Origin: Paenibacillus woosongensis
Lineage (GTDB): Bacteria > Bacillota > Bacilli > Paenibacillales > Paenibacillaceae
Reading direction: 5' to 3'
NCBI RefSeq assembly: GCF_030122845.1
Contig: NZ_CP126084.1
Span: 558,001-622,000, forward strand
DNA length: 64,000 bases
Part shown: piece by piece, positions 9,201-64,000 of the stretch
Layout: each line of letters opens with the position of its first letter
Numbering within the stretch: position 1 is the stretch's first letter
Made by a program: the position numbers and the translations under genes
The notes under the pieces: model-generated
Database searches by the model: none
Told to the model about the DNA's origin: nothing
What the model saw: only the letters and a program-made list of their open reading frames with translations

Positions 9201-12200
9201 GCGAGGTAGAGAATGTTCTCCTGAAGCAGGCGGGGATCAAGGAGGCTGTTGTCCTGGCGATAGAGAACCTGCGGCATGAAACGGAGTTATGCGCATATAT
9301 TGCCGCTTCCCGGGAATGGCCGGTACGGGAGCTGAGAGAGCACCTGGCCCGGGAATTGCCGGAATACATGCTTCCAGTCCATTATATGTTCCTGGATGAA
9401 TTGCCATTAACCGCGAACGGCAAAGTGAACCGCCGTGCGCTGCCGCAGCCCGACTTCCATTCCGCTGCAGAGAATAACCATGTTCCGCCCCGCAGTAAAA
9501 CGGAACAGAGACTGGCTGAGATTTGGTCTGAGGTGCTCGGGGTTGAGCAGGTTGGGGCGCATAGCCATTTCTTCGAGCTTGGCGGGCATTCTTTGAAGGC
9601 GGCGGCGCTGACCGCCGGCATTAAGGAAGCTTTTCAAGTTGACCTGCCGCTAAGCGGCGTCTTCCGCCATCCTATTCTGGAGCAGATGGCCGCGGGGATT
9701 GATGCGCTGGAGCGGCAGGGGTACACGGAAATTGAACGCATTCCGGATCAGGAGGATTACCCGGTATCCTCAGCGCAAAAGCGTCTGCTGATTTTGAACG
9801 AGCTGGAAGGAGCAGGAACGGCGTATAATATGCCTTTTGTCTTGCAACTGTCTGGAAGTCTGGATCGCTCCAGGCTGCAGCAGTCATTCGATGCCTTGAT
9901 TCGCAGGCATGCAGCCTTCCGAACCTCATTTGCGCTTAGAGAGGGCGAGCTGGTGCAAATCATCCATCCAGAGGTCGCATTTCAGATCCGGGAAATGGCT
10001 ATTATGGATGAGCCTGCTCGAATCAAGGAGGCCATCCGGCAATTTGTTCAGCCTTTCCATCTGCAGCAGGCGCCGTTAATTCGCGTGGGGCTGGCAAGCC
10101 TTAGTGCGGACAAGCATATTCTGATGATCGACATGCATCATATCATCTCGGACGGAGAGTCTGTGCGCCTGCTGGTTGAGGAGCTAAGCCAGCTGTACAG
10201 CGGCCAGGAGCAGAGCAGTACTGCAACGCGGGTGGAATATAAGGATTATGCGGTATGGCAAAATAAAATGCTTCAATCGGAAGCCTATCGACAGCAGGAG
10301 CAATACTGGCTGGAGCGCTTCGCGGGAGAATTGCCGGTGCTCACGCTACCTACCGATTATGCGCGTCCGCAAATGCAGAGCTTCGAGGGGGATAGCTTGA
10401 CGGTTAAGCTGGATAGCGATTTAAGCTCTCGCATACTTGAAGCGGCTGCGCGGACGGGAACTACCTTGTATATGTTCCTGCTTGCCGCGTATAACATCCT
10501 CTTATCCAAATATGCGAACCAGGAGGATATTATCGTCGGTACGCCGACCGCAGGCAGGGCGCAGAAAGAACTGGAGGGCATCATAGGGATGTTTGTTAAC
10601 ACCCTTGCAATCCGTACTCAGCCTGAAGGGCATAAACACTTCGGGGATTTCCTGGAGGAAGTGAAGGAGCATTCACTGCAGGCGTTCGAGAATCAACTGA
10701 TCCAGTACGAGGATCTGCTGGAGAAGCTGGAGGTCGCGCGGGACGTAAGCCGCAATCCGCTATTTGACACGATGTTTGCCGTGGATAATGTCGGGGTCGA
10801 GGAGATTCAGCTGGATGGCCTGCGTATGGAGCCATACCCGTTCGATAACGGCACATCCAAATTCGATTTGATGGTTACGGCGGCAGAAGATGGAGCGGAA
10901 ATCCGTTTGGATATCGAATATGCCGTCAAGCTATTCCGCAAAGATACGATTGAGCGCTTGATTGCGCACTATGTTCAAATCTTGCGGGCCGTTACGGCAG
11001 ACATGGATATTAAATTGTGCGACATCGGTCTGCTGCTGGAGGAGGAGCGGCGGCAAATTATCGCAGATTTCAATGATACGGCAACTTACTATCCGCGCCA
11101 AACGATCCATGAGCTGTTCGAGGAGCAGGCGGAACAGCAGGCAGACCGCATCGCAGTTGTCCATGGCGATACGGAGCTGACTTACCGCGAGCTTAATGCC
11201 AAGGCGAACCAGCTTGCCGCAATATTGCGGGACAAGGGAGTTGGCCCTGACCGGATTGTGGCGATTATCGGGGATCGCACGCTGGAAATGATCATCGGCA
11301 TGCTGGCGATTCTGAAGGCAGGGGGCGCTTATCTTCCGATTGATCCGGATTATCCGATGGACCGGGTCGAATACTTCCTTAAGAATAGCGAGGCCAAAGT
11401 GCTGCTTGCCCGCAGTTGTTACGCAGACAGAGCGATAGATGGCGTAGAAGCCGTCGTATTGGATCACGAGCAGCTGGACAATCTTGATGCGCCTAATCTC
11501 CCCCATGAGACGAACCCCGGTCATCTCGCTTATGTGATGTATACTTCGGGATCTACGGGACTGCCTAAAGGGGTTATGGTCGAGCATCTCGGCGTCGCCC
11601 GGCTGGTCAGGAATACGAATTATGTGCGCTTCACAAAAGAGGATCGCGTGCTGCAGACAGCGGCTCCGGTATTCGACGTCAGCGTGTTTGATATTTGGGG
11701 AGCACTGCTGAATGGCGCGCGCCTGTACCTGGTCGATAAATTTACACTGCTGGATCCGATCCGGGTTGAATCCGTGCTTCAGCAGCATCGCATCACGATG
11801 CTATGGCTGACATCGCCGCTATTTACCCAGTTCGCCCAGCAGAAGCCGGATATGTTCCGTACGGTTAGCTACTTGATCGTCGGCGGAGATATTCTCTCCC
11901 CGAAGCATATCCAGCTTGTGAGGGAGCATTGCGGGCAGTTGACCGTGGTGAATGGGTACGGTCCTACGGAGAACACCTCGTTCTCCTGCTGCTTCATCAT
12001 CGAAGAGGCATATGAGAAAAGCGTGCCGATTGGGCCGCCGATCAGCAATTCAACGGCATATATCGTCGATAAATACGGAAACCTGAATCCGGTCGGCGTG
12101 CCTGGCGAGCTCTGGGTCGGCGGGGACGGTGTTGCCCGCGGATACATGAACAATGAAGAGCTGACCAGGCAGAAATTCATTCCCAATCCTTTTGTTCCAG

Positions 12201-51791: not shown

Positions 51792-52184
51792 GTGCTGTGG
51801 TCGAACACTTATTTAATCGGGACATGGGCCGCATTCCGTGACGTAGTCGCTCTGCCTGATGGTTCGGTCATCGTTGCCGGGAGGATGAGCAGTTCTGAAA
51901 TCAGTGGCTCTTTGGCGGTCAACGCGAAAATAAACCGAGTCGGAGAACTAGTATGGGTGAAAAGGAACGAGAGCGATCAAATCCACTCGATGATTCCTTC
52001 CCGAGACGGTAACATGATTTTGACTCGCTATATCAAGGACGAGAATCGCTACTATCTGCAAACAATGAACTCCGCGGGAACTGTATTGTCGGACTTGCGC
52101 CGGTTCCATCCTCTCAGCCAATTTGGTTTGGATATCGAAAAATGTACGCGGAGTGCGCAATGTATATTGGAGTTTTATCGCTGA
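51792..52184 (+). pseudogene. Beta-propeller protein fragment
   Basis: About 130 codons of blade-like sequence (VALPDGSVIVAGR, SRDGNMILTRYIKDE, YYLQTMNSAGTVL). The same frame stays open upstream to about 51750 (LFNNGIGEVLWSNTY) but has no proper start, and the end is shorter than a full propeller. It is likely a leftover of a longer gene. Convergent with nothing; it overlaps the next gene by 43 nt. Confidence 0.5.
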
Positions 52185-52453
52185 TGTCCATTTTTTTAAT
52201 GCTGCTAGGTTCAGAATCGAGTTTTGGATATGCGGGAGTAGGTATAGGGATCTCGATCCTGGCTAATGAAATGTATTACAAAAAATCTAAAAAAGCGATT
52301 GATAAGATCATGCAATATCATAGTGACCCTGAAGTACGCCGTAATCTAGCTATCCAAAAAGGCGGGACCTCAGGATGGGGAATTGTGTATGCCATTGTAA
52401 TTTTACTTGTATCGATTGCTATAGAGATCATTATTGAGGACGCATTATTGTAG
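52142..52453 (+). CDS. DUF2628-like small membrane protein, possibly truncated
   Basis: A 103-residue protein with two hydrophobic helices (residues ~8-40 and ~80-98) and a middle region YYKKSKKAIDKIMQYHSDP similar to DUF2628-type proteins. The usual N-terminal part is short here and the start lies inside the propeller fragment, so it may be a 5'-truncated gene fused to foreign sequence. Moderate doubt about expression. Confidence 0.5.
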   Translation: MYAECAMYIGVLSLMSIFLMLLGSESSFGYAGVGIGISILANEMYYKKSKKAIDKIMQYHSDPEVRRNLAIQKGGTSGWGIVYAIVILLVSIAIEIIIEDALL

Positions 52454-52496
52454 GATCTCGTGATGGAAGGTAGATTTTATATACCTAGCCTTATCA

Positions 52497-54095
52497 TTAT
52501 TCTTCGGCCCGTTCCGCAATTTTAGAACGATTACGTAATTGATTAGCAATCGTATATCCGATAAGGAACGCAGCGGCAGAAGTATTGCCGTCCACCGTAA
52601 ATGGAATGAGGGAGGCGTCGGCGACGATTAAATCCTTTACCCCGTGCACATTTCCTAGACGATCAACGACTCCGCCCTTGTTCCTTGGGGCCATCCGAAG
52701 GAAGCTCTGCTGGTGATGATTATGATCGAAGTTTTCCTTAATAAATTGTTCTAGCTGCATATCATCATCTATAACATCCAAACTCGGTGTTACGAGACGG
52801 ATAGAAGGATCTACGCTTGCCAGTTCGGCTGCAATTTTTTTGATATATATTTTATAAATATTTTTAACTGCTTCCATGTCTCTTGGATCTGACAGAAATC
52901 CTTCATCAGCCAACACAATGTTTAGCGGATCATTATTTTGAATGGTAATCGATCCCCGGCTCTTAGGCCGCAAATATAGAATCGCGATGGTTAACATGCC
53001 ATCCGAACCGATTCCAATCAGTTGTACGGCTCTACGGTCAGGTTTTGTTCCAGTGGGGTCAGGCAAAAAGGCTCCTCCTGTGTATAGCGCATCCGAATCA
53101 TTGGAAGGCAGTGCAGCATCATCGGGGTTCGTTGTAAATACCGCGGAGTTTAATGTGTGATTTTTTAGTCTTTGGCCTACGTTCGGATTATGAACAATGA
53201 CAGGTATTCCCGCTGCTTTTAGCGATTTGGCGGGTCCTATCCCCGATAGCATTAACAATTGGGCACTATTGATTCCTGCTGAAATGATCACTTTTTTTCG
53301 CGAATATACTTTAATGAACTTCCCTTCTTTTAATAACTCTACGCCTATAGCCCGTTTGCGGTCAAAAAGCACGCGAAGGGCTGTTGTCTTATAGTAAACG
53401 GTTAGTTTACGTCCATTCTTGCCTCGGCCAGAGGATGTCACGATATCGGAGGACAGAAAAGCGGTTGACGAGCTTTCCCGGTCTCCATTTGGCTTTTGAT
53501 ACAATTGCCAGCGGGTGAATGGACCGAGTGGAGTATCAGGATCATTGTAGTCAAGAATGCTAGGAAATCCGGTGGCTTGCTCAATGGCGAGGACGAGCTT
53601 ATCCGCCAGGGGCGTTGGTTCCGAAGGCGCTTGCCTGATGTCTATTCTTCCGTGAAACCCGCGCGCCTCAACGTTATCGGTTTCACCATTATAATTTTCT
53701 AGTCGTTTAAATCGACGAATGGCTTTATCCGGGGACCAAATGGGGCCGAGTAACTGTTCCCACTCTCTAAGCACCGCTGTGGTTGGACGCACATACTGCT
53801 CACCGTTAATGGAAGATCCGCCGCCGGAGAGGCGGCCGGTTGTCCATTCAAAAGATCGATCATCCAGGTTCTCTTGAGGGATGCCTTCTCCTTGCCAGAA
53901 GTAATTGGGGAAAAAGTTCTCCTCCAGTTCCAGAGCAAAGCTTGAATCCATAATGGGTTTGTCTTTATCATGATTTTCGCCCGCTTCGATGACGAGTACA
54001 GAAGTTTTCTTATCATCTGTAAGCGTTTTGGCGATGACTGCGCCTGCTGGTCCTGTACCTATAACGATATAATCAAAAGATGATTTCCCTTTCAT
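52497..54095 (-). CDS. GMC family FAD-dependent oxidoreductase
   Basis: A 532-residue flavoprotein: N-terminal FAD-binding GTGPAGAVIAKTL (residues ~10-22), TTGRLSGGGSSINGEQYVRP (GMC signature 1), SAGINSAQLLMLSGIGP (signature 2), and the C-terminal VADASLIPFTVDGNTSAAAF with active-site His replaced near FTVDGN context; the catalytic His-His/Asn pair could not be placed surely. GMC enzymes oxidise alcohols such as choline, glucose or aryl alcohols. I chose ATG 54095 behind AAAAGGAG; the frame opens at 54116. No signal peptide. Confidence 0.88.
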   Translation of the reverse strand: MKGKSSFDYIVIGTGPAGAVIAKTLTDDKKTSVLVIEAGENHDKDKPIMDSSFALELEENFFPNYFWQGEGIPQENLDDRSFEWTTGRLSGGGSSINGEQYVRPTTAVLREWEQLLGPIWSPDKAIRRFKRLENYNGETDNVEARGFHGRIDIRQAPSEPTPLADKLVLAIEQATGFPSILDYNDPDTPLGPFTRWQLYQKPNGDRESSSTAFLSSDIVTSSGRGKNGRKLTVYYKTTALRVLFDRKRAIGVELLKEGKFIKVYSRKKVIISAGINSAQLLMLSGIGPAKSLKAAGIPVIVHNPNVGQRLKNHTLNSAVFTTNPDDAALPSNDSDALYTGGAFLPDPTGTKPDRRAVQLIGIGSDGMLTIAILYLRPKSRGSITIQNNDPLNIVLADEGFLSDPRDMEAVKNIYKIYIKKIAAELASVDPSIRLVTPSLDVIDDDMQLEQFIKENFDHNHHQQSFLRMAPRNKGGVVDRLGNVHGVKDLIVADASLIPFTVDGNTSAAAFLIGYTIANQLRNRSKIAERAEE

Positions 54096-54331
54096 CGGAG
54101 CACTCCTTTTTACCATAGACTACTGTAGAGTATTGCGTTGTTCGATGCTGTGTGCCAGTCTATTCCGGAAATGCCTGATATCTGGATCATGCAAGACCCA
54201 ATCCAGGATAGGAATATCCGGGGCTGGGTATATGTACAGAACATTTTGGTTCGTTCTCCGAGGAGGGGAAGGCCACAATAAAAACAAACAAAATCCTATA
54301 AAAACGTTATAAAATGAGTTATACTGAGGTA

Positions 54332-54455
54332 AGAATAAGTAAGGAGCCGTGCAGCAACACGGCTCCAAAGTACAATAACTGCATAAAGAGCAGTCGGCCG
54401 CTAAGTGGTGGTCGAAATAGACCGTAACCTTAGGCAGGGCGGTCTATTTCTTTTT
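54332..54455 (+). ncRNA. Probable antisense RNA of a type I toxin-antitoxin pair (RatA/SR4-like)
   Basis: A TATACT at 54320-54325 could start a transcript near 54332. It would contain a perfect 5' hairpin GGAGCCGTG/CACGGCTCC (54343-54366) and end in the strong hairpin AAATAGACCG/CGGTCTATTT followed by CTTTTTC. The 3' end overlaps the minus-strand toxin frame. The sequence CGAAATAGACCGTAACCTTA with GGCAGGGCGGTCTATTTC resembles RNAs next to 'putative holin-like toxin' genes in Bacillales (recalled). Confidence 0.6.
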
Positions 54456-54518
54456 CATGTAGGTAAGAAGCGCCAAAATGAACATGCCGAACATGAACAT
54501 TAGGGAAAAGTATAACAT
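54444..54518 (-). CDS. Putative holin-like type I toxin peptide
   Basis: A 24-residue hydrophobic peptide with the core FGMFILALLTYMKKK: one membrane helix and a basic C-terminal tail, as in TxpA/BsrG/'putative holin-like toxin' peptides. Its stop codon lies inside the terminator hairpin of the opposing RNA. It is shorter than usual and the upstream ribosome binding site is weak, so the true start may differ. Expected at the cytoplasmic membrane. Confidence 0.55.
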   Translation of the reverse strand: MLYFSLMFMFGMFILALLTYMKKK

Positions 54519-54581
54519 AAACGGAAGAATTATAAGGAAATAGATTTAATAGTGAAAAATATATTACGATACAACACATGA

Positions 54582-54616
54582 CCCGACCTGGATTAAGAAA
54601 TATCTAAGGCCGGGTT
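54582..54616. terminator. GACCCG...CGGGTT hairpin, copy 2
   Basis: ACCCGACCT and AAGGCCGGGT around GGATTAAGAAATATCT. It is related to the hairpins at 37144 and 56667. Confidence 0.55.
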
Positions 54617-54714
54617 GTTTCATAATACATTGTTTGTTATAACATATGTATTTACGATGAGGATGGGAAATATGAGGTTTAGGGCGAATTGCGTATTTGC
54701 CAGGGATTTTCTTT

Positions 54715-54894
54715 ATGAACAGTTTGATCATCGTTATTTGTTTGTATCAATCTAAACGGCTAAAAAAAGCGCTGAAGCTTTTTTTGTGGGTGGTAATCTT
54801 AATAATTACTGTAGTTCTATCAGTATTGATTTACCCGCAAGAGTATGAACCGGGTATTCTGGAATTGTTATTTTCTAAAGTAATCGGAGGGTGA
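54715..54894 (+). CDS. Small membrane peptide, 59 residues
   Basis: Two hydrophobic segments separated by basic residues (SKRLKKALK). It ends 6 nt before the Nudix ATG, so it may be co-transcribed. The ribosome binding site (AGGGA) is weak. Unknown function. Confidence 0.4.
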   Translation: MNSLIIVICLYQSKRLKKALKLFLWVVILIITVVLSVLIYPQEYEPGILELLFSKVIGG

Positions 54895-54899
54895 ATTCA

Positions 54900-55463
54900 A
54901 TGGAACAACACATAAAAAAGCCTATCGCTAATTACTTGGATAACGTACCTGCATTGAAAAAGCCTATCCACTGGAAACAAGTGTCTAGCCAATTCAAGCT
55001 TGGCAAGGATTTCGATGAGGCTTTGGTGAGCAATATAAGCATGATTCCGTTTATTGGCTCAAAGTGTGTGGTCATGCAATTGGATAATGGCCGATGGGAG
55101 CTGCCGGGCGGAACGATGGAACCTGGGGAGAGCTATTTCGAGTGTTTAAGAAGGGAAATGCTTGAGGAGTTAGGTGCGGAGATAAGCAACTTTGAAGTGT
55201 TTGGGCACTTCTATTGCTATTCCAGTGCAGAGGAGCCATATCGGCCGCATATCCCTCATCCCAATTTTATTAGATTGATGGGCCTGGGAGAAGTAAGGAT
55301 CGTTTCGGAGCCGCTGAATCCGGCTGACGGTGAGATGGTTGTCTCCGTGGAAGAAGTTAGTTTAGACGATGCGGTTAGAAGATTCGAATCGATCGGTCGA
55401 TTCGACATCGCTGATCTGTATAGGCTTGCTTATAGCATAAAAACCGGTTTGGGAGAGAACTGA
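54900..55463 (+). CDS. Nudix hydrolase
   Basis: A 187-residue protein with the Nudix box GGTMEPGESYFECLRREMLE then ELG (near residues 75-97). A longer N-terminal segment (residues 1-45) precedes the core. The substrate is not readable. CGGAGGGTG precedes ATG 54900. The stop is followed after one base by the DUF1835 gene, an operon. Confidence 0.85.
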   Translation: MEQHIKKPIANYLDNVPALKKPIHWKQVSSQFKLGKDFDEALVSNISMIPFIGSKCVVMQLDNGRWELPGGTMEPGESYFECLRREMLEELGAEISNFEVFGHFYCYSSAEEPYRPHIPHPNFIRLMGLGEVRIVSEPLNPADGEMVVSVEEVSLDDAVRRFESIGRFDIADLYRLAYSIKTGLGEN

Positions 55464-55464
55464 A

Positions 55465-56544
55465 ATGGAAGATCTACAATCGATTAAGAAGGCTATAGAT
55501 TCCCTGGGACACGCAGAACTGCGGTCGTATTTGGGTTTTATACTAGCGGAAATCAAGCGGCTGCGGGATCAGGGCGAGCCTAGTGAAGATTCGATCACGA
55601 AGCTGCTTGAGCTTTATGATGGACTGATGGGGCTTCAGCAGCAAAGAGGCTTCTGGGATCCTGTTCCGGCTTGCACCCATGTTCATATCGTGATCGGTGA
55701 TTCTTTTGCGGGAAGTATGAAATATGCGCTGAAAGAGCTCGGTTGGGCAGAGACGCATAAGGTGATTACCTTGAGGGAGAATTACGCCATTGGTCCTTTG
55801 GGCGAGTTGGACTCCCCGAAAGGCAGGGCGGCCCGCCGTGAATGGTTCCGGGATCATATAACGGATTCTTTCGAGGACGATGTGGAAGTTGAAGAAGAGT
55901 ACAGCATGCTTGTAGACAAGCTGGCGAATATTCCTGAACAAGCGAAAATCATTGTCTGGACCAGCAGCAACGCCTGCGAGCAGGCAGGAATGCGGCATGC
56001 GGTTCATCTGCTGCAGAGCAAACGCAATACGTTAACGGTGTGCAACGCTTGCGCAATTTGTGAAGAGCTCTATAACGGACCAGATGCCAGAATGGAATAC
56101 AGGCATTCGGGGGAAATCCCGTCTGACAAGCTCCAGGAAGCACTCCGCCGCATCGAAGATAGCAGCCCACTGAGCCATGCTGACCTGATGCGATTAGTGC
56201 AGGAATGGCAGGCAATCTCGGAGCAAACCTCGACCCTGCGCATTTGGCGGGAAGGTGCAGTGCTCGGAGTACCTGCAGATTATTATGATTCATATCTGCT
56301 GGACAAGCTGGACAAGCTAAAGCCACCCGCCGGTGATCATGGTTTTCTTAAAGCAGCCCGCCTGATCGGAGAGGCGATAGGTTATTGCGAGCAATATGTG
56401 GGGGACTCGTATTTCGAATATCGGTTGAGAGAGCTGATTTATAACGGCACCCTTGAAATTAAAGGCCTCCCTGCAGCGATGAGATTCTATAGCGTCCGGC
56501 GCAAACATGCTAACCCATATAAAGAACGCCAAATCGGCGGTTAG
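55465..56544 (+). CDS. DUF1835 / DUF3658 protein
   Basis: A 359-residue soluble protein with a DUF1835 core (VHIVIGDSFAGSMKYALKEL, residues ~75-95; YAIGPLGEL) and a C-terminal part of the DUF3658 kind (residues ~250-345). Function unknown; similar proteins are common in Bacillales. GGGAGAGAACTGAA links it to the Nudix stop. The last codons form the left arm of a terminator stem (see 56507). Confidence 0.85.
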   Translation: MEDLQSIKKAIDSLGHAELRSYLGFILAEIKRLRDQGEPSEDSITKLLELYDGLMGLQQQRGFWDPVPACTHVHIVIGDSFAGSMKYALKELGWAETHKVITLRENYAIGPLGELDSPKGRAARREWFRDHITDSFEDDVEVEEEYSMLVDKLANIPEQAKIIVWTSSNACEQAGMRHAVHLLQSKRNTLTVCNACAICEELYNGPDARMEYRHSGEIPSDKLQEALRRIEDSSPLSHADLMRLVQEWQAISEQTSTLRIWREGAVLGVPADYYDSYLLDKLDKLKPPAGDHGFLKAARLIGEAIGYCEQYVGDSYFEYRLRELIYNGTLEIKGLPAAMRFYSVRRKHANPYKERQIGG

Positions 56545-56562
56545 GGCATGTTTTTTTTAACT
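56507..56562 (+). terminator. Terminator overlapping the end of the DUF1835 gene
   Basis: CATGCTAACCC and GGTTAGGGCATG flank a 24-nt loop that includes the stop codon; TTTTTTTT follows. The stem begins inside the coding region. Confidence 0.8.
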
Positions 56563-56666
56563 GTGGGAACTATGATAATCGACCCTATCAAAGAACACTG
56601 CTGGATACAGAAGAATTTCTAAGGGAAATTAACTTTTTGAGGTAACTGAGGCAAAGTGAAAAAAGA

Positions 56667-56704
56667 CGACCCGATCATAGATAAGCAATCTAAGGACGGG
56701 TCAT
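56667..56704. terminator. GACCCG...CGGGTC hairpin, copy 3
   Basis: GACCCGAT and ACGGGTC around TCATAGATAAGCAATCTAAGG. It lies downstream of the minus-strand GTP cyclohydrolase gene and belongs to the family at 37144 and 54582. Confidence 0.6.
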
Positions 56705-56735
56705 GTTATATCCACGCTTATAGGGTTATAAAATC

Positions 56736-57470
56736 CTATTCCTCCAAATGCCCCGAACGCTGCACCTTGGTCTGCAAATAGAACTCGTTGAAGGCTGATT
56801 CTCCGCCCCAAATCGGTTCTCTTCCAGATAAGGCGAGGCCGGCTTTTTGCAGGGCTTCGAGCTTCTTAGGATTGTTGGTCATGAGCGTTACAGGCTTGGT
56901 GCGAAGAGTTCGCAGCACGCTTAGCGCATCGGTGTAGCTTCTGGAATCGTCAACGAAGCCGAGGCTTAAATTAGCTTCAACGGTGTCGTATCCGTTCTCT
57001 TGCAGCACGTAGGCCATCGCTTTGCTGAATAATCCAATGCCGCGTCCCTCATGGTTGGCCAGGTAGAACAGCGCGCCTGTCCCGTGCTCCACAATGTTCT
57101 TCATGGATTTCTTCAGCTGGTAACCGCAATCGCATTTCTGGCTGCCGAAGATGTCGCCTGTGTGGCAGATCGAATGCATGCGGATCAAGGCTTCGTCGGC
57201 ATTTTTGAAGTCGCCGTACACGAGTACGCTTGACTGCTGGTATTCCGCTAAGCTTGCGGAGGACAGCTGATCGATGATTTCCTGAAAATTATCTGTGACT
57301 TGGCAGCGGCTGAGCCAGCAGTACCATTGGAAAATGACGTTCTCACCGTCCAGGTCAACGGGCAGCTTGATCGGTCCAACGAGGTAAATGCCGCCTTCCT
57401 CGGTCTGGATTAATTGAATTTTTTCTTTTAAAATATCCAGTGCTTTAGGTTCTAGCTTCGTATCCGACAT
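56736..57470 (-). CDS. ribA: GTP cyclohydrolase II, stand-alone
   Basis: A 244-residue RibA-family enzyme: HSICHTGDIFGSQKCDCGYQ supplies the zinc cysteines (C-x9-11-C-x-C), NHEGRGIGL matches the usual QEGRGIGL, and TNNPKKLEAL is the C-terminal GTP-binding segment. It opens GTP to the pyrimidine precursor of riboflavin. It lacks the DHBP synthase half found in housekeeping RibBA and sits with an LLM flavin oxidoreductase, so it may feed flavin or a deazapurine/pyrimidine pathway. The gap to the upstream gene is 32 nt. Confidence 0.88.
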   Translation of the reverse strand: MSDTKLEPKALDILKEKIQLIQTEEGGIYLVGPIKLPVDLDGENVIFQWYCWLSRCQVTDNFQEIIDQLSSASLAEYQQSSVLVYGDFKNADEALIRMHSICHTGDIFGSQKCDCGYQLKKSMKNIVEHGTGALFYLANHEGRGIGLFSKAMAYVLQENGYDTVEANLSLGFVDDSRSYTDALSVLRTLRTKPVTLMTNNPKKLEALQKAGLALSGREPIWGGESAFNEFYLQTKVQRSGHLEE

Positions 57471-57502
57471 CGAATCATTCCTTTATCGCATAATGTTATA
57501 GG

Positions 57503-58597
57503 TCAGGTGCGTGGCTCTGCAACTGCTTTGCTTGTATGTTGGCGAACGACCGGGGCAACCTTTGTCGCCAGCAGTTCTATGCTTTGTGCAACATTAGAAA
57601 AGGGGATGCCGCCGACATCAAGCTGTAACATGAACCGCTGGTGGCCAAATAGCTCGTATTGATACATTATTTTGTCGATGATTAATTGCGGATCTCCTAC
57701 AAATAAGGCCGTTTCCGGGCTGGTCATTTGTTCGAACTCCTCGCGCGACAGGGGTGCGCTGGTTTTTCCAAGCTGACGATCTACATATTGCCTATAATTG
57801 GCGTAGTACGGATAATATTCGTCTTTGGCCTGCTGCGTTGTAGCAGAAATGTAACCATGGCCTGTAATAGCGACCTTCAGATCGGATGGCTTGTGGCCAG
57901 CTGCGTTTCCAGCTGCACGGTATGCTTCTACCAAAGCTTGAAATCGATTAGGAGCACCGCCAAGGATCGCCAAAGCCATGCCGGTTCCGAGTTTTCCAGC
58001 CCGTTCCGCGCTGACCAGCGACCCCCCTGAACCGATCCACATGGGAATTTGCGTCTGGATGGGGCGTGGTGCAATTTCCGCTTCTTGAAGGGGAGCGCGA
58101 AATTTGCCTTGCCAGGAAACCTTCTCCTGTTGGTTTAACTGCTGGAACAGCTCGAAGTTCTCCATGAACAGTTCATCATAATCATTCAGGTCATAGCCGA
58201 ACAGAGGAAAAGACTCCAGGAAAGCCCCACGCCCACCTATAATTTCAGCCCGTCCATTCGATAATAAGTCTAGTGTGGCATACTCCTCGAACAGTCGAAC
58301 CGGATCTGTAGTCGTCAGAACGGTTGTCGCGCTGGTTAATTTAATTTGCTTTGTAGTTTGTGCGATGGCCGCTAAAATCACCGAGGTTGACGATGCCGCA
58401 TAATCTAGACGATGATGCTCGCCAACTCCGAATATATCTAATCCGGCTTCATCAGCCAGCTTAGCCGCTTCAATCATATCCAACAGCCGCTGCCGGCTGT
58501 TGATGGTTTGACCTCGATGCGGATCAGGTACAAGATCGCCGAGAGTGTAAACTCCAATTTCAATTCCTTGATGCTTATTCTGTATGCTGTCATTCAT
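57503..58597 (-). CDS. LLM-class flavin-dependent oxidoreductase
   Basis: A 364-residue luciferase-like TIM-barrel protein with FGVGEHHRLDYAAS (near residue 55), SNGRAEIIGGRGAF (near 115) and WIGSGGS (near 180). Such enzymes use reduced FMN, or F420 in some groups, to oxidise small organic substrates with O2. I chose ATG 58597 with GAAGGGG 8 nt upstream; the frame continues to 58651. It is transcribed with the GTP cyclohydrolase gene. Confidence 0.88.
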   Translation of the reverse strand: MNDSIQNKHQGIEIGVYTLGDLVPDPHRGQTINSRQRLLDMIEAAKLADEAGLDIFGVGEHHRLDYAASSTSVILAAIAQTTKQIKLTSATTVLTTTDPVRLFEEYATLDLLSNGRAEIIGGRGAFLESFPLFGYDLNDYDELFMENFELFQQLNQQEKVSWQGKFRAPLQEAEIAPRPIQTQIPMWIGSGGSLVSAERAGKLGTGMALAILGGAPNRFQALVEAYRAAGNAAGHKPSDLKVAITGHGYISATTQQAKDEYYPYYANYRQYVDRQLGKTSAPLSREEFEQMTSPETALFVGDPQLIIDKIMYQYELFGHQRFMLQLDVGGIPFSNVAQSIELLATKVAPVVRQHTSKAVAEPRT

Positions 58598-59363
58598 TGT
58601 TGGAACCCCTTCATTAAGAATTGCCGTGTATTCGAATTGTTTGCAATCCATGGTTGGTTAATGCAATAACTTATAATTATATCATAATACAACGAAGTTA
58701 ATAAAGGAACTAACAATTATTAAGTTCCTTTCCAAGCGTATTTTTTGGAAATGAGATGTATAATTGTGGAAGGATATTGAATTAAAACAGGGAATATGGA
58801 AGATGATCATGTATTAAGTTTGCTTCTCATTCACGGAGGATATTTATGTTAGTGCTTTGGCGGAGTGAACTCTGAAGCGCTAATAGATCTTTTTCCGAAG
58901 AAGTAAAACACATTGATTCAGGCTTCGCCAATTGAGGCTTGCGAGGAGCATCAACAATAAGATGAAATTAAGAGGCGTTACTTCCGTCCCAAACCGGTTC
59001 TCTAGGCGCCGTGGATCCGCAGCAAGACTCGTGAGTAACAACTTTACTAATAAAGAGAATACTATATAAAAATGACTCCTGTAAGAATAAAAGGAGTCAT
59101 TTTTATATTACTACTACGTTGGTTTGGGGCTAAATCCATCTTACCTTAAAGATTAAGCATCAAAATTTAAATAAAATATAGATAAAAAACCATAATGTAT
59201 TATATTATAATAAAATATGGAATATAAGGAAAAAACATAGTTATTAGGAGGTGATAGGATCAGCCTTTCTTCTAAAGCAACATATTATAAAAAAATACTC
59301 TTTTAATTTTACTATTAACGGCGGAGGAATTAAGTTTATGGGAAGAAAAATTAGGAGGATACG
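58598..59363. other. Long AT-rich spacer before the cysteine-peptide cluster
   Basis: Contains one strong terminator (59068-59106), TATAAT-like promoter sequence near 59206, and a short leader frame (59338). Around 58850-59040 a GC-richer stretch has inverted words (GGCTTCGCC, GAGGCTTGCG) but no gene that I can support. Confidence 0.55.
59068..59106. terminator. Strong bidirectional hairpin
   Basis: AAAAATGACTCCT and AGGAGTCATTTTT around GTAAGAATAAA, a perfect 13-bp stem with A- and T-rich ends. It marks the left border of the next cluster. Confidence 0.9.
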
Positions 59364-59382
59364 ATGTCTAGAATATCGATAG
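59338..59382 (+). CDS. Possible 14-codon leader peptide
   Basis: ATG 59338 lies 9 nt after GGCGGAGGA and encodes a very basic 14-residue peptide (MGRKIRRIRCLEYR) that ends inside the next gene. The overlap could couple translation. It is short, so chance is possible. Confidence 0.35.
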   Translation: MGRKIRRIRCLEYR

Positions 59383-59846
59383 AAAAACCACACTATAAAT
59401 TTTTAAAAAAACCAACAAGCGCAGATTTAAATGTAGGCGATTTCATAAGCAATGTGGTAGTTGATAAAGCCCAAGATGTATATCTATATGATTTGATAAT
59501 AAATCGACATTTGATACTTACTTTTTTTGATACTGAGTGTTCCTCTTGTGAGGAAGCTATGAATAACATTAAATCATTTGCTACGAAAAATCCCCATATC
59601 AATATAGTTTCATTCATTCATACCACTGATGATGTCTTTCAGTTACTCGACGAATACTACAATAATTCCCCGAGAGTATACCGACTTGCCAAAGAAATCA
59701 TTAATGAAGAATTAAAAATTTACTCTTTCCCAAAAGGAATAACAATAAATGAAATTGGACAGGTTTTACATATTGAGATATTGGGACCAGAATACGTTTA
59801 TGATTTTCTTAAAATTCCGTTAAGAAAGCTGCTACCAAATAATTAG
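59364..59846 (+). CDS. Thioredoxin-like protein (CSSC)
   Basis: A 160-residue thioredoxin/TlpA-fold protein: FISNVVVDKAQDVYLYDLII is a redoxin-type N-terminal part, and FFDTECSSCEEAMNNI (near residue 57) is the active-site region with CSSC. No clear signal peptide or membrane anchor is present, which is odd for a TlpA-like protein. AGGAGG lies 5 nt before the ATG. It is the first gene of a tightly spaced run of six with a cysteine-rich peptide at the end, so a role in disulfide handling of that peptide is possible. Confidence 0.75.
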   Translation: MSRISIEKPHYKFLKKPTSADLNVGDFISNVVVDKAQDVYLYDLIINRHLILTFFDTECSSCEEAMNNIKSFATKNPHINIVSFIHTTDDVFQLLDEYYNNSPRVYRLAKEIINEELKIYSFPKGITINEIGQVLHIEILGPEYVYDFLKIPLRKLLPNN

Positions 59847-59858
59847 GAGGGGATGCAA

Positions 59859-60275
59859 TTGAAAAGTCTAAGCGAAATTCTTCAATTAGCTAGAGATCAA
59901 AAGAAGGAGGAAAACAGTTCAAAGTTAACTACTATCCAAGCTTTTGATATCGATTATATATCAGGGAGAAAATCAATTTATTTAGTTATCTCATTGAGTT
60001 GCATGCATTGTATCGAGTTAATCCCGCATCTTAATGAGTTAAATAGCAAAGATACTTTTTATCTCATAACTGATGGAAATGACAATGACAACCAGGAAAT
60101 AAGAAAGGAATTTAAATATGAGTTTGAAGTCTATTCTTATACCAAGCCCTATGACAGAATAAATATTTATAAAACTCCTACCGCACTTCTTGTTGATGAA
60201 AATGGAAATATCATAGACAGTCATTTTACGCCTTTTATTACTGATGTAATAAATTTTTGTAATAAGGTCGTTTGA
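59859..60275 (+). CDS. Thioredoxin-like protein (CMHC)
   Basis: A 138-residue thioredoxin-fold protein with CMHC in LVISLSCMHCIELIPHLNEL (near residue 50) and a cis-Pro-like YKTPTALLVDENG (near residue 108). It starts at TTG 59859 with AGGAGGGG 6 nt upstream; the ATG at 59853 touches that site. It has no signal peptide. It overlaps the MauE-like gene start, in the same operon as the CSSC protein. Confidence 0.75.
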   Translation: MKSLSEILQLARDQKKEENSSKLTTIQAFDIDYISGRKSIYLVISLSCMHCIELIPHLNELNSKDTFYLITDGNDNDNQEIRKEFKYEFEVYSYTKPYDRINIYKTPTALLVDENGNIIDSHFTPFITDVINFCNKVV

Positions 60276-60277
60276 TC

Positions 60278-60796
60278 ATGCTTCTATTATCTTTTTTTAT
60301 CAAAGTTGTCTTCGGATTGGTATTTATTATTTCGCTATATTTCAAAGCAGTCGATATTACTGATATTAAACAAGAAATCACCGAATTAAAGCTAGTGCCA
60401 ACTATTTTAATAAAACCAAGTATTTATTGCCTACTGGCCGCAGAACTTTTTGTTTCATTTAGTTTTCTATTCGATTTACTGTACTTTTGGCGGGAAATAT
60501 TTACGATAATCTTGTTGTTGTTTTTTTCATTTACTATTTTATTGAAAAGAAAAAAAACGAGTTCAATATCGTGTTCATGTTTTGGTAAAGACAGTATTTT
60601 AAATAGAAAGCCACTATTGAGAAATTCTATTTTAATTAGTTTATGTTTTATTAATCTTATTTGGGATTATAATTTATCACTAATTCAAATGGTTACCGGA
60701 ATATCGGTAGTATGCTTTTCAATTGCATTAATAAATATGATAAATGCAATTGTAACTTTTAATATGATGAGGAAAATACATGATAATGTTCAATAA
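60278..60796 (+). CDS. MauE/DoxX-like membrane protein
   Basis: A 172-residue protein with four hydrophobic helices and a C-x-C motif before FG (SISCSCFGKD, near residue 105), typical of MauE proteins. MauE is needed for maturation of the disulfide-rich small subunit of methylamine dehydrogenase and is thought to act in periplasmic disulfide formation. It overlaps the previous gene by the stop and the next gene by 17 nt. A TTG at 60272 is an alternative start. Confidence 0.8.
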   Translation: MLLLSFFIKVVFGLVFIISLYFKAVDITDIKQEITELKLVPTILIKPSIYCLLAAELFVSFSFLFDLLYFWREIFTIILLLFFSFTILLKRKKTSSISCSCFGKDSILNRKPLLRNSILISLCFINLIWDYNLSLIQMVTGISVVCFSIALINMINAIVTFNMMRKIHDNVQ

Positions 60797-61178
60797 CCTT
60801 TTATTCATTATGTTTATGTTATTTATTGTAGTCATAAGTATTACTACTTTAATCATAAGACATAGAGCAAAGTCGTTTGAATCCAAAATTTTCAGTAAAT
60901 TGAATGAAGGAGATTTAGTTCCTTACTTACTAGTATTTGACTATAAATCACCAATGTTTAAAAGAATCGATGAATATTTAAAAAATACTAACCCAATTGA
61001 TTTAAATATTGTATTTATTTCAAGCCCTTGGTTATTTAAGTTAAAAGAGAAATCATGGAAATATAACAAGATTTATTTTGTAAATTCAGCTGAATTAAAA
61101 ACTAATGGACTAGTTAAAATGTATTATCGCTCTGAAAAAGGCGCTATAGTTTCTCGAAATGTAATAGATATCATGTAA
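60780..61178 (+). CDS. Membrane-anchored MauD-like protein without cysteines
   Basis: A 132-residue protein: one N-terminal membrane helix (residues ~5-27) and a soluble domain whose layout (LNEGDLVPYLLVFDYKSPMFKRI) matches MauD-type membrane-bound thioredoxin-like proteins, but no cysteine at all. It would sit on the outer side of the membrane next to the MauE-like protein. AGGA precedes the ATG, which overlaps mauE. It is a redox-inactive partner or a different protein; I am not sure. Confidence 0.6.
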   Translation: MIMFNNLLFIMFMLFIVVISITTLIIRHRAKSFESKIFSKLNEGDLVPYLLVFDYKSPMFKRIDEYLKNTNPIDLNIVFISSPWLFKLKEKSWKYNKIYFVNSAELKTNGLVKMYYRSEKGAIVSRNVIDIM

Positions 61179-61195
61179 TAATTCGGAGGAATAAT

Positions 61196-61585
61196 ATGGA
61201 GATAAAGGGATGTATTCTAGTTGCAGAAGATATTGAGTTTCATCCACTAAGAAGAAGTCATTCAATTAAAAGTGTTTTAAACCTTGTGGAAGTTAAGTTA
61301 TTCCCGGCTGCAATTGTCACAGATGTTTTAATTAAGCTTATCTTGCCCAAAGATTTCAATTCTGCGGAAGCAGTTGTAGAAGTGCACTCACCGGACAAAA
61401 TCGTGGCATTTAGGAGTTCATTCATAGATGTTAAAAATTTCAGGCCTGACGGAGCAGTACCAGGGATGGAGGCTTGTTTAAATTCAAGATTTGCTGCTGT
61501 AGAGGAAGGGAGTTATACATATAGGCTATTAATAGATGAGAAAGTTTTTTATGAGTATCCTTTATATATTTACTCGAGTGATTAA
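61196..61585 (+). CDS. Small beta-rich protein, DUF6941-like
   Basis: A 129-residue soluble protein with alternating strands (KVLNLVEVKLFPAAIVTD, EEGSYTYRLLIDEKVFYEYPLYIY). The end resembles DUF6941-type proteins of unknown function. GGAGGAATA precedes the ATG. It has one cysteine-poor core and no export signal. Its link to the cluster is positional. Confidence 0.6.
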   Translation: MEIKGCILVAEDIEFHPLRRSHSIKSVLNLVEVKLFPAAIVTDVLIKLILPKDFNSAEAVVEVHSPDKIVAFRSSFIDVKNFRPDGAVPGMEACLNSRFAAVEEGSYTYRLLIDEKVFYEYPLYIYSSD

Positions 61586-61589
61586 AGCT

Positions 61590-63401
61590 ATGAGAAACTG
61601 GATGAACCAATTTTATCTTTATTTTTCGATATTTAAATTAGTCGGAAAGGGTCAAATCATTAAACTTATATATTATTTCTTAATTACCATTGTTGAGGGA
61701 CTTATTCCTGTAGCACAAGTCTATTTACTAAAAAAACTTACAGACAGTATTGCTCTCTTCCTTTCGGGAAATAATCCTATCACACAAGTTTTGTTTTTCA
61801 TATTATTACAATTCACTCTATTATTAATGAACCAAATTATATTATCTTATAAGTCTTTAATTAAAACGCGGCTTACCCAATATTTAAGCTTCAGTATAGA
61901 TTCTTCTATTTCCGAAAAACTTAAGAAAATACCTTATATTTATTTTGAAAAATCAGAAAATTATAACCTTATAGAGCGTGTAACAAGTGGTCTAGGAGCT
62001 AAATTTGTGATTGGACTTACTTCCATATTAAGTATACTTAAGTATTCTATTATGCTTATTGGTTACTCCCTACTTTTATATAAACTACATTGGTCACTCG
62101 CACTATTGTTAATAATATTATTGTTACCCTCTTTATATACCAATATAGGTATTTCAAAAAGCCATTTCCTATTTAATCAGTCGCAGACTCATATGAATAG
62201 AAGAAGTAATTATCTTTTTAGTCTCTTTAGTAATAAAGTTGTACAAAAGGAATTAAGAATCTTCGATCACGGCAAATACTTAGCGAATTTATGGAAAAAT
62301 TTTTTTTGGAAGACGGCCGATGAACAGTTTGAATTGGAGAAAAAGGCTGCTGGTAAGAAAAATTTCAATATTACTATTAATCAGGCAGTCAGCACATTAT
62401 TTATGATAGGCCTTCTTTGGATAGGACAAATTAATAACACTATGACAATTGGTGATTTTGTTGCATTTTCTTCATTGCTTTCAATGAGTATTAATTCTAT
62501 TCAATTTTTATCCAATGAAATAGGAGGCTTTTTTAGTCAAAATTTATATTTAAGTGAATACAATTTGTTCATGAATCTGGAGGAAGACAAACAGCAATCT
62601 AAATTGTTTAAAAATAAACTAGAATCAGGAATTACTTTTAGAAATGTTTCTTTTAAATATCCGAATAGTGATAAGTATGCATTGAAAAATATATCATTTA
62701 CAATTTCTTCAAAAGAAGTGGTTGTTATTGTTGGTGATAATGGCTCTGGAAAAAGCACTTTAGTCAAATGCTTAATAGGCTTGTATAATCCGCAAGATGG
62801 TGAAATTTTATTTGACGATGTGGATTCGAGAAAACTCGCTGGATCTGAAAAAAATAAGAAGCTTAGCGTTTTGTTTCAAGATTTTTTTAGATACGATCTA
62901 TCCTTTAAAGAAAATATAATTTTATCTCAGGTAGATGAAGGATTCGACAAAGTAAAATATTGCAATGTAATTAACAATGCTAAATTATCGGATATTATTA
63001 GTGATCTTCCAAATTATGACGCTACCCCACTTGGAAAAACATTGCAAGACGGTATTGAATTATCTGGAGGGGAATGGCAACGGGTCGCATTAAGTAGAGC
63101 ATTATATAAAGAATCTGAAATTTTAGTGTTAGATGAACCTACGGCAGCAATAGATCCTCTAACAGAGGCAGATATTCTAAGTTCTTTTATGGATATATGT
63201 AATGGCAAAACTTCAATTATTGTTACGCATCGACTTGGAAGCTGTCTTTATGCTGATAAAATCATTGTCCTTAAGGAAGGGGAAGTTGCAGAAATAGGTA
63301 CACATAGTGAATTAATTCAACAGGAAGGGGTTTATTTCAATATGTTTCATTCCCAAGCGAAAAATTATATAGATGCAGATAAAAAACTTGAATTTTCATG
63401 A
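61590..63401 (+). CDS. ABC exporter, fused membrane and ATPase domains
   Basis: A 603-residue half-transporter: membrane domain (residues ~20-330, six helices) and a nucleotide-binding domain with Walker A GDNGSGKST (near 384), Q-loop LFQDFFRYD, signature LSGGEWQRVALSRALY (near 492), Walker B LVLDEPTAAID and switch His VTHRLGS. It has no N-terminal C39 peptidase, so it does not cleave a double-glycine leader itself. It starts 4 nt after the DUF6941-like gene; I chose ATG 61590 because earlier codons lie inside that gene. It is the probable exporter of the peptide gene that follows. Confidence 0.9.
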   Translation: MRNWMNQFYLYFSIFKLVGKGQIIKLIYYFLITIVEGLIPVAQVYLLKKLTDSIALFLSGNNPITQVLFFILLQFTLLLMNQIILSYKSLIKTRLTQYLSFSIDSSISEKLKKIPYIYFEKSENYNLIERVTSGLGAKFVIGLTSILSILKYSIMLIGYSLLLYKLHWSLALLLIILLLPSLYTNIGISKSHFLFNQSQTHMNRRSNYLFSLFSNKVVQKELRIFDHGKYLANLWKNFFWKTADEQFELEKKAAGKKNFNITINQAVSTLFMIGLLWIGQINNTMTIGDFVAFSSLLSMSINSIQFLSNEIGGFFSQNLYLSEYNLFMNLEEDKQQSKLFKNKLESGITFRNVSFKYPNSDKYALKNISFTISSKEVVVIVGDNGSGKSTLVKCLIGLYNPQDGEILFDDVDSRKLAGSEKNKKLSVLFQDFFRYDLSFKENIILSQVDEGFDKVKYCNVINNAKLSDIISDLPNYDATPLGKTLQDGIELSGGEWQRVALSRALYKESEILVLDEPTAAIDPLTEADILSSFMDICNGKTSIIVTHRLGSCLYADKIIVLKEGEVAEIGTHSELIQQEGVYFNMFHSQAKNYIDADKKLEFS

Positions 63402-63494
63402 AGAACACCCTGAATCAATATGGTACCTATTTATGGTAGTCGGGGCCTGAATGCCTTGTCTATAAATTATCTTAACTACGAGGAGGTGAAAATT

Positions 63495-63698
63495 ATGGCG
63501 GCGCCATATAATTCTTGTGATTATAGAGACAATTGTACAAGTAATCCATGCGGTGACAGAAAAATTAAGTATCGTGAATACTATGGATGTAGTCCAATTC
63601 AACCCACGGTTACTTGTGACGTATTCGGTTCCTTATGCGATGGTGTTTGCTCCTTCTGCAGCCAGTGGTTAGAGTCAGAATACATTTCTTGTTGCTAA
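63495..63698 (+). CDS. Ten-cysteine small peptide, possible RiPP or disulfide-rich precursor
   Basis: A 67-residue peptide with cysteines at 8, 14, 19, 32, 41, 48, 52, 55, 66 and 67. It has no signal peptide, no double-glycine site and few long-chain hydrophobics, so it is not an obvious pre-protein. GAGGAGGTG stands 7 nt before ATG 63495, the strongest site in the region. It follows the exporter gene by 94 nt and is closed by a terminator at 63746. Neighbours (two CxxC thioredoxin-like proteins, MauE-like protein) suggest that its cysteines are made into disulfides. I recognise no family. A metal-binding or spore-type Cys-rich protein is the alternative. Confidence 0.75.
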   Translation: MAAPYNSCDYRDNCTSNPCGDRKIKYREYYGCSPIQPTVTCDVFGSLCDGVCSFCSQWLESEYISCC

Positions 63699-63745
63699 GA
63701 AATTTAGGTTGGAAATCCTTAGGTTTTATGTCAAAATAGGTTTAA

Positions 63746-63780
63746 ATGAAGGGCTGGAATATACCAGCCCTTCATTTTTA
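63746..63780 (+). terminator. Terminator after the ten-cysteine peptide gene
   Basis: GAAGGGCTGG, loop AATATA, CCAGCCCTTC and ATTTTT. Confidence 0.9.
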
Positions 63781-63810
63781 AGAATCTATAATACGAGAGG
63801 TAAATATAAA

Positions 63811-64000
63811 ATGAAAAAGTTATGCTTATTGTTAAGTCTTGTAATCACACTATCTGGTTGTCAGGCACCGGAACAAATAGAGGAGACACGGAACTTAAAA
63901 GTACTTGCTTTTAATGAGAAAATATTTAATCAATTATACGGGAATTTTTTCATTGCAACGCATCCAAACTATTCTTTAGAAGTCATCTCTATTTTCGAAA
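63811..64000 (+). CDS. Extracellular solute-binding lipoprotein, partial at right edge
   Basis: Start of a lipoprotein (lipobox LSGC, Cys near residue 17), followed by LKVLAFNEKIFNQLYGNFFI, which resembles the first strands of family 1 sugar-binding proteins. The gene continues past the window. GAGAGG precedes the ATG. Whether it belongs to the peptide cluster cannot be decided. Confidence 0.75.
   Translation, partial: MKKLCLLLSLVITLSGCQAPEQIEETRNLKVLAFNEKIFNQLYGNFFIATHPNYSLEVISIFE

Follow-up and report, generated by a model that had tools for sequence, protein, structure and literature searches.

A laterosporulin-type operon of Paenibacillus woosongensis likely matures and exports a leaderless ten-cysteine peptide

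A stretch of 64,000 nucleotides from Paenibacillus woosongensis (NZ_CP126084.1, positions 558,001 to 622,000; hereafter the window) was located in a single-contig genome of 5.29 Mb. Close to its end, seven plus-strand genes stand in a row (59364 to 63698; Table 1). Six of them are packed together and precede the gene of a 67-residue peptide with ten cysteines, all at the place given by an initial annotation made from the letters of the window. The successive gaps in the row are 6, 2, −17, 17, 4 and 93 bases. The same gene set was found in other genomes beside small cysteine-rich peptides, among them laterosporulin, a defensin-like bacteriocin with a crystal structure. By gene content, the window holds a laterosporulin-type system with a new ten-cysteine product; no description of its machinery was found in the open-access literature.

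Two hairpins bracket the seven-gene row. The strong upstream hairpin that had been noted near 59068 was confirmed by folding: the segment from 59064 to 59108 reached −20.7 kcal/mol (z −8.2) on the plus strand and −19.8 kcal/mol (z −6.7) on the minus strand. The G+C content of 59338 to 63780 is 0.306, compared with 0.463 for the whole window, and the lowest value among the other 4443-base stretches of positions 1 to 59000 (step 100 bases) is 0.334. A local dip to 0.344 was also seen at 54500 to 55000, outside the operon. The start codon of the peptide gene was picked by its ribosome site; a start at the in-frame ATG at 63420 would lengthen the peptide by 25 residues, but that codon has no such site.

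Table 1 Features of the operon and its borders, in window coordinates. ABC, ATP-binding cassette.
Feature	Position	Strand	Remarks
Hairpin upstream of the operon	59060-59108		A and T runs on both sides; terminator-like on both strands
TRX1, thioredoxin-like	59364-59846	+	CSSC
TRX2, thioredoxin-like	59853-60275	+	CMHC
MauE-like membrane protein	60278-60796	+	SCSCFGK motif; alternative TTG start at 60272
ORF4	60780-61178	+	One N-terminal hydrophobic helix and a soluble domain; no cysteine
ORF5, DUF6941-type	61196-61585	+	Predicted immunoglobulin-like beta sandwich
ABC exporter, MsbA-like	61590-63401	+	Permease and ATPase, no peptidase domain; alternative ATG at 61536
Shine-Dalgarno site of the peptide gene	63481-63488	+	AGGAGGTG; 8/8 match
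Ten-cysteine peptide, 67 residues	63495-63698	+	Ends in CC; no recognizable leader or signal
Terminator-like hairpin after the peptide gene	63744-63777	+	T tail; −23.6 kcal/mol, z −6.6
Start of a solute-binding-type lipoprotein	63811-64000	+	Directly after the operon's terminator; continues past the window (L002:4812-6110)

Among the seven window genes, Pfam confidently names only the MauE-like protein and the ABC exporter, both as first annotated. The former scores 68.6 bits against PF07291 (E 8.3e-19), above the curated cut-off of 27, and the latter matches ABC_tran and no peptidase family. The remaining assignments of the initial annotation stood in part. For the two proposed thioredoxin-fold proteins, the window's own copies match PF13905 weakly and below its cut-off (E 0.0055 and 0.021), and TRX2 has a weak similarity to MauD (TIGR02661, E 0.0038). 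Structures of the thioredoxin fold, ResA among them, are retrieved by the TRX2 family profile (best E 9e-7), and hhalign relates the TRX1 family to the TRX2 family (E 8.8e-16). In TRX1, P123 and the two cysteines of the CxxC are invariant in 13 of 13 aligned rows, and the CxxC is invariant in the TRX2 family too; C99, C101 and G103 of MauE are invariant in all 12 rows.

The DUF6941 assignment of ORF5 holds for the family, with 12 of 16 homologues matching PF22091; the window copy gave no match. Its structure prediction is a confident beta sandwich with immunoglobulin-like matches. Because many unrelated immunoglobulin-like domains tie, no function can be taken from this fold, and the ORF5 family profile had no match in the PDB. 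ORF4 indeed has no cysteine, but the MauD shape ascribed to it was not borne out: the window copy matches no Pfam family, its profile shows no hhalign similarity to TRX2, and its AlphaFold model, of low confidence (predicted local distance difference test, 65), gave no fold match with E below 0.001. Against the PDB, the MauE and ORF4 profiles returned chance-level rows only.

Neither a signal peptide nor an N-terminal membrane helix was found in the 26 TRX rows (13 TRX1 and 13 TRX2), and seven TRX2 rows have a hydrophobic stretch that overlaps the CxxC region. The CxC loop of MauE is rich in lysine and arginine in the window (8 K+R vs 1 D+E). Because the window and most rows share this positive charge, a cytoplasmic location is predicted for the CxC motif; the redox chain would therefore act at the inner face.

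Related clusters were collected by searches with single genes. MauE had matches in eight of 98 related genomes (own genome included), TRX1 in ten of 198 genomes of the order, and ORF5 in nine of 398 genomes of the class (two weak and without the system) and in eight of 75 genomes of one genus (one weak and without the system). Eight loci came from a scan of named genomes, seven of Paenibacillus and one of an uncultured Paenibacillaceae; four duplicate clusters were counted once. After duplicates and matches without the rest of the set had been dropped, 31 clusters remained, of which 30 are complete and one (L033) is cut by a contig end. No MauE match was found in the 39 other genomes of the window's genus.

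The two TRX genes and the ABC exporter are present in all 30 complete clusters. MauE was found in 27, a separate ORF4 likewise in 27 (with a fusion to MauE in two more), and ORF5 in 25. Gene order varies between clusters, with that of L032 (genome G105) identical to the window's. These two are also sisters in the exporter tree (100/99), and they group with L044/L045 and L081/L082 (100/100). Two genomes, G061 (L030/L034) and G069 (L029/L035), each hold two different clusters with different 6-cysteine peptides. Extra ABC ATPase genes follow ORF5 at L083 (8767 to 11570, with two putative permease genes), and one or more do so at L108 (10671 to 11351); both are possible immunity exporters. The L111 cluster is apparently decaying, with TRX1, ORF5 and ORF4 left as short pieces only and the peptide intact.

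MauE alone was rejected as a marker of the system: among 398 genomes of the phylum, three more have relatives of MauE, and the fetched stretches contain no system. MauE homologues occur without the rest of the set at L093-L097 and L037, and DUF6941 homologues at L085, L086 and L112 (weak matches). All of these loci were left out of the cluster counts, L037 because it has no exporter, ORF4 or ORF5. There (G136, 7345 to 13222), MauE and a membrane-anchored TlpA-like protein lie beside a 48-residue peptide with seven cysteines and large enzymes that, judged by sequence, look lanthipeptide-type.

Every complete cluster encodes a small peptide in which no leader is recognizable and the cysteines number 6, 8 or 10; the six genes without any cysteine-rich product, which would have spoken against the initial annotation, were not seen among these clusters. 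Some of these peptide genes are missed by open reading frame listings that keep the longest of overlapping frames. A scan weighing ribosome sites detected a peptide in 12 of 12 complete clusters scanned and none in the cut cluster L033. A fixed rule was also used, which asked for at least 6 cysteines, at most 85 residues, a ribosome site of at least 5/8 and a position on the same strand within 1 kb. It was passed by 23 of 25 clusters, with 29 matches in the cluster spans vs 2 in 753,661 strand-bases of control (flank and antisense sequence). Both clusters outside the rule, L029 and L030, carry 6-cysteine peptides and fail because their ribosome site reads GGGGGTGA. With the rule fixed beforehand, five of five newly fetched clusters passed with one peptide each, and no other match appeared on either strand of the six loci in this prospective set, the sixth of which is without the system. 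In total, 28 of the 30 complete clusters have a peptide by the fixed rule, and the other two have one with the variant ribosome site.

Lengths of the 35 distinct peptides range from 41 to 73 residues, and each has 6, 8 or 10 cysteines. An even count in every peptide is what fully paired cysteines predict. At 50% identity they form 19 groups, each with a single even cysteine number. The residue after the first methionine is A, G, S, P, C or T in 34 peptides, and CC lies within the last four residues in 28. Most (32 of 35) match no Pfam or NCBIfam model (E 0.01); three, the same number as there are laterosporulins among them, match the laterosporulin model (PF17861 / NF033806, E up to 0.01). Some peptides begin with MAC and CPDG, reminiscent of laterosporulin. 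L027 has two copies of a 6-cysteine peptide gene about 290 bp apart (9682 to 10175), identical in protein sequence, and L081 and L082 (the second clusters of G369 and G305) have three consecutive 8-cysteine peptide genes between ORF5 and the exporter.

The window peptide has a homologue in the cluster of the same gene order in another genus (L032; 57% identity, E 9.6e-19). Their alignment score of 210 was reached by none of 300 shuffles with cysteines fixed (shuffle mean 52). This was the only clear homologue beyond the window's own genome in the 198 genomes of the order, so the peptide was not found to lie mostly away from these genes, a result that would have counted against the initial annotation. 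Around three weak matches (E 0.002-0.007), no system gene was found in the short fetched stretches. Because the two peptides are homologous, the operons have the same order and the exporters are sisters, the window peptide belongs to the system; by its sequence it is a new peptide and not a laterosporulin. A protein search with the window peptide alone gave no match, and an alignment of 12 peptides used as query found six proteins, one of them named as laterosporulin family. Phmmer searches of the PDB with the window peptide and one 8-cysteine relative returned nothing credible.

The link to laterosporulin was made through the neighboring genes. A laterosporulin sequence taken from PMC6510442 gave three strong matches in the 398 class genomes (E 4e-24 to 5e-20); the other 19 genomes with a match had E 0.006 or worse. 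In all three strong loci (L067-L069), laterosporulin directly precedes TRX1-ABC-TRX2-MauE-ORF4-ORF5, the same six genes, with a peptidase-free exporter, that the window has beside its peptide. The peptide encoded at L069 has exactly the sequence of PDB 4OZK. Laterosporulin occurs in three of five genomes of this genus, and the same three have ORF5. Judged from the peptide, the three genomes are probably Brevibacillus. In two of them a second cluster is present, and it encodes three 8-cysteine peptides.

Laterosporulin has three disulfides (PMC6510442), and its mature form starts at alanine (PMC3293901). Its locus was described as a regulator, a hypothetical gene, an ABC transporter without a protease domain and a 'dehydrogenase' in 4 kb (PMC3293901), and as a hypothetical (immunity) gene, two transporters and a regulator (PMC6510442). 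Expression of the 4 kb fragment and of EcoRI clones (6,738-6,750 bp) was unsuccessful (PMC6510442). The gene that lies upstream of laterosporulin at L069 is presumed to be the regulator, and the span from it through TRX2 measures 3,951 bp. The EcoRI fragment around the laterosporulin gene of L067 is 6,873 bp long and ends inside TRX2; at L068 and L069 the EcoRI sites fall elsewhere. The published 'hypothetical' and 'dehydrogenase' genes would then be TRX1 and TRX2, with MauE, ORF4 and ORF5 just outside the 4 kb. Because the published lengths come close to those of stretches that end at or inside TRX2, MauE, ORF4 and ORF5 may have been absent from the published clones, as judged from L067-L069. 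Such a gap would offer a testable reason for the failed heterologous expression of laterosporulin.

At the same site in the sister genome G005, the segment corresponding to 58806-63789 is missing and about 90 bp are found instead, in a flank 95% identical to the window's. In G004 and G037 the two flanking genes are at most about 240 bp apart, and there is no cluster in 4 kb of G001. Because of this empty site and the G+C content of 0.306, the data fit a discrete gain of the operon, with loss in G005 as the alternative; this supports the separate acquisition that had been proposed from the base composition and the hairpin. No copy was found on plasmids (with MauE of L025 and the window peptide as queries) or in viral contigs, and no tRNA lies within 52000-64000 of the window. 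Between the empty-site boundary and the upstream hairpin (58806-59060) there is no convincing gene.

The lipoprotein gene downstream is kept in G005 (79% nucleotide identity) although the operon is absent. Close relatives (over 440 bits) were found at five other clusters (L029, L030, L031, L110 and L111) and a distant relative near L038 (228 bits). We guess that it is an immunity or sensing protein, and for some clusters only, because no relative was found at the other 24 of the 31 clusters.

Taken together, the laterosporulin-type six genes likely oxidize the peptide, which has ten cysteines and no leader, until it is stapled by disulfides, and export the product, probably a bacteriocin. The peptide would be made without leader or signal, and TRX1 and TRX2 would act on its thiols at the inner membrane face. 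MauE would reoxidize both proteins and feed the electrons into the respiratory chain. The complex would be anchored by ORF4, and ORF5 would serve to bind the peptide or to pass it on; once the first methionine has been removed, the ABC exporter would secrete the peptide. We infer the direction of oxidation, the electron sink, the roles of ORF4 and ORF5, the export of a folded peptide and its antibacterial function. A further-reaching version is possible but falls short of being probable: a dedicated and hitherto unrecognized machine that makes disulfides at the cytoplasmic membrane face before secretion, with 3 to 5 disulfides formed in leaderless peptides by two cytosolic CxxC proteins and an inward-facing MauE, delivery by the DUF6941 protein and release of the folded product by a peptidase-free ABC exporter. 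It would define a bacteriocin class of which laterosporulins are the only recognized members.

Several observations weigh against maturation and export of a bacteriocin by these genes. ORF5 and MauE are missing in 5 and 3 of the 30 complete clusters, so they are not needed everywhere. The window peptide matches neither PF17861 nor NF033806 (E up to 10), and its comparisons with the three laterosporulins were not significant (score 26-33, reached by 32 to 114 of 300 shuffles); the L032 peptide fared slightly better (2, 3 and 23 of 300). Its similarity to the L081 peptides is weak (1, 3 and 26 of 300 shuffles, among 26 comparisons). The 35 even cysteine counts are not 35 independent trials, because many of the peptides are related and the cysteine rule had a floor of 6. 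The topology of MauE and the TRX proteins is predicted from hydropathy and charge, and the charge of the MauE loop is less clear in some rows (3 K+R vs 4 D+E in L029, 6 vs 6 in L031). Activity, disulfides and export of the window peptide are predicted from the genes.

The same genes and product could also serve the opposite chemistry, with the TRX pair and MauE keeping the peptide reduced for unfolded export and its disulfides forming outside by air or general oxidases. TRX1 and TRX2, having no signal peptide or membrane helix, are probably in the reducing cytoplasm, where most thioredoxins reduce, and the best solved match of the TRX2 profile, ResA, is a reductase. However, no thioredoxin-reductase-like gene is present among the window's seven (the other clusters were not scanned for one), and the MauE-type membrane protein has been linked, speculatively, to disulfide formation (PMC7794033). 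We regard reduced export as unlikely, though it is the strongest of the competing explanations.

Less likely still, the peptide may be secreted without being antibacterial, as a signal, metal-binding or spore/envelope peptide that uses the laterosporulin export machine. To our knowledge, activity has been reported only for the laterosporulins among the peptides of this set, which favors such a role, as do the net charge of −3 of the window peptide and its lack of a known family. On the other hand, the peptide has no histidine, and the spread of the system is rare and patchy (ORF5 matches in 9 of the 398 class genomes, of which 7 have the system; MauE in 0 of 39 other genus genomes). The varied peptide sequences (19 groups) and the low G+C content also fit a weapon better than a housekeeping part.

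A methylamine-dehydrogenase-like maturation system, with the peptide as small subunit, is very improbable. MauE is present and TRX2 has its weak MauD similarity, but the peptide has no match in Pfam and is accompanied by an ABC exporter, and there is no dehydrogenase among the seven genes (the neighbors and other clusters were read, not scanned, and the rest of the genome was not searched). Short open reading frames are common, but a spurious one beside unrelated redox and transport genes is refuted by the control count (2 matches vs 29 in 25 cluster spans), by the prospective set (5 of 5 clusters with a peptide) and by the L032 homologue at the same place in another genus.

Oxidation and export of a disulfide-stapled peptide therefore remain our preferred reading, and an undescribed maturation and export system for a cysteine-dense peptide, as suggested at the outset, is supported at the level of gene content by the recurrence in 30 complete clusters. 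The novelty has to be narrowed at one point: clusters in Streptomyces that combine MauE with precursors of at least 8 cysteines had been noted before (PMC7794033). No account of this gene set together with laterosporulin was found in the open-access literature, most subscription papers, such as that of 2016 on laterosporulin10, lying outside this scope; the term DUF6941 was likewise not found there. The comparison gives laterosporulin a six-gene operon and adds 32 further peptides in 18 groups (50% identity) beyond the laterosporulins. The mechanism would bear on disulfide formation in leaderless peptides of Gram-positive bacteria.

Several known systems share parts of this arrangement. Methylamine dehydrogenase maturation (MauE, MauD) has MauE family membership in common with it, whereas the window has a small peptide and an exporter, and no dehydrogenase gene in the operon. 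As first annotated, neither a lanthionine synthetase nor a radical SAM enzyme occurs among the seven genes, unlike what defines lanthipeptides and sactipeptides. SunT, of the sublancin-type glycocins, has a peptidase domain. These glycocins also combine thiol oxidoreductases (BdbA/BdbB) and a transporter with a disulfide-containing bacteriocin (PMC5100339), but the window's seven genes include no glycosyltransferase, leader peptide or exporter peptidase domain. Actifensins, the defensin-like bacteriocins of Actinomyces, are small and disulfide-rich and have ABC transporter genes; their structural gene, however, has a 32-residue leader, and the word 'thioredoxin' is absent from the main text of the report (PMC6989792). 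Three candidate families from Streptomyces, found by decRiPPter, have MauE beside predicted cysteine-rich precursors, one of them also MauD (PMC7794033). They differ in host, and the available text states no product or laterosporulin link; the comparison is by description only.

The gene features of leaderless class IId bacteriocins are all present in the window, namely a small peptide without leader or signal and an exporter without a peptidase domain. The closest known relative is laterosporulin (PF17861, NF033806; PDB 4OZK), through the six shared genes, and not sublancin or methylamine dehydrogenase, to which the initial annotation had likened the operon. Both systems have a short leaderless peptide with paired cysteines and alanine after the first methionine, an exporter without peptidase and a low G+C content, the last also stated for laterosporulin itself (PMC3293901). 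They differ in the product, which has 10 instead of 6 cysteines and 67 instead of 50 residues and ends in CC in the window, and in the place of its gene, last in the window operon and first in that of laterosporulin.

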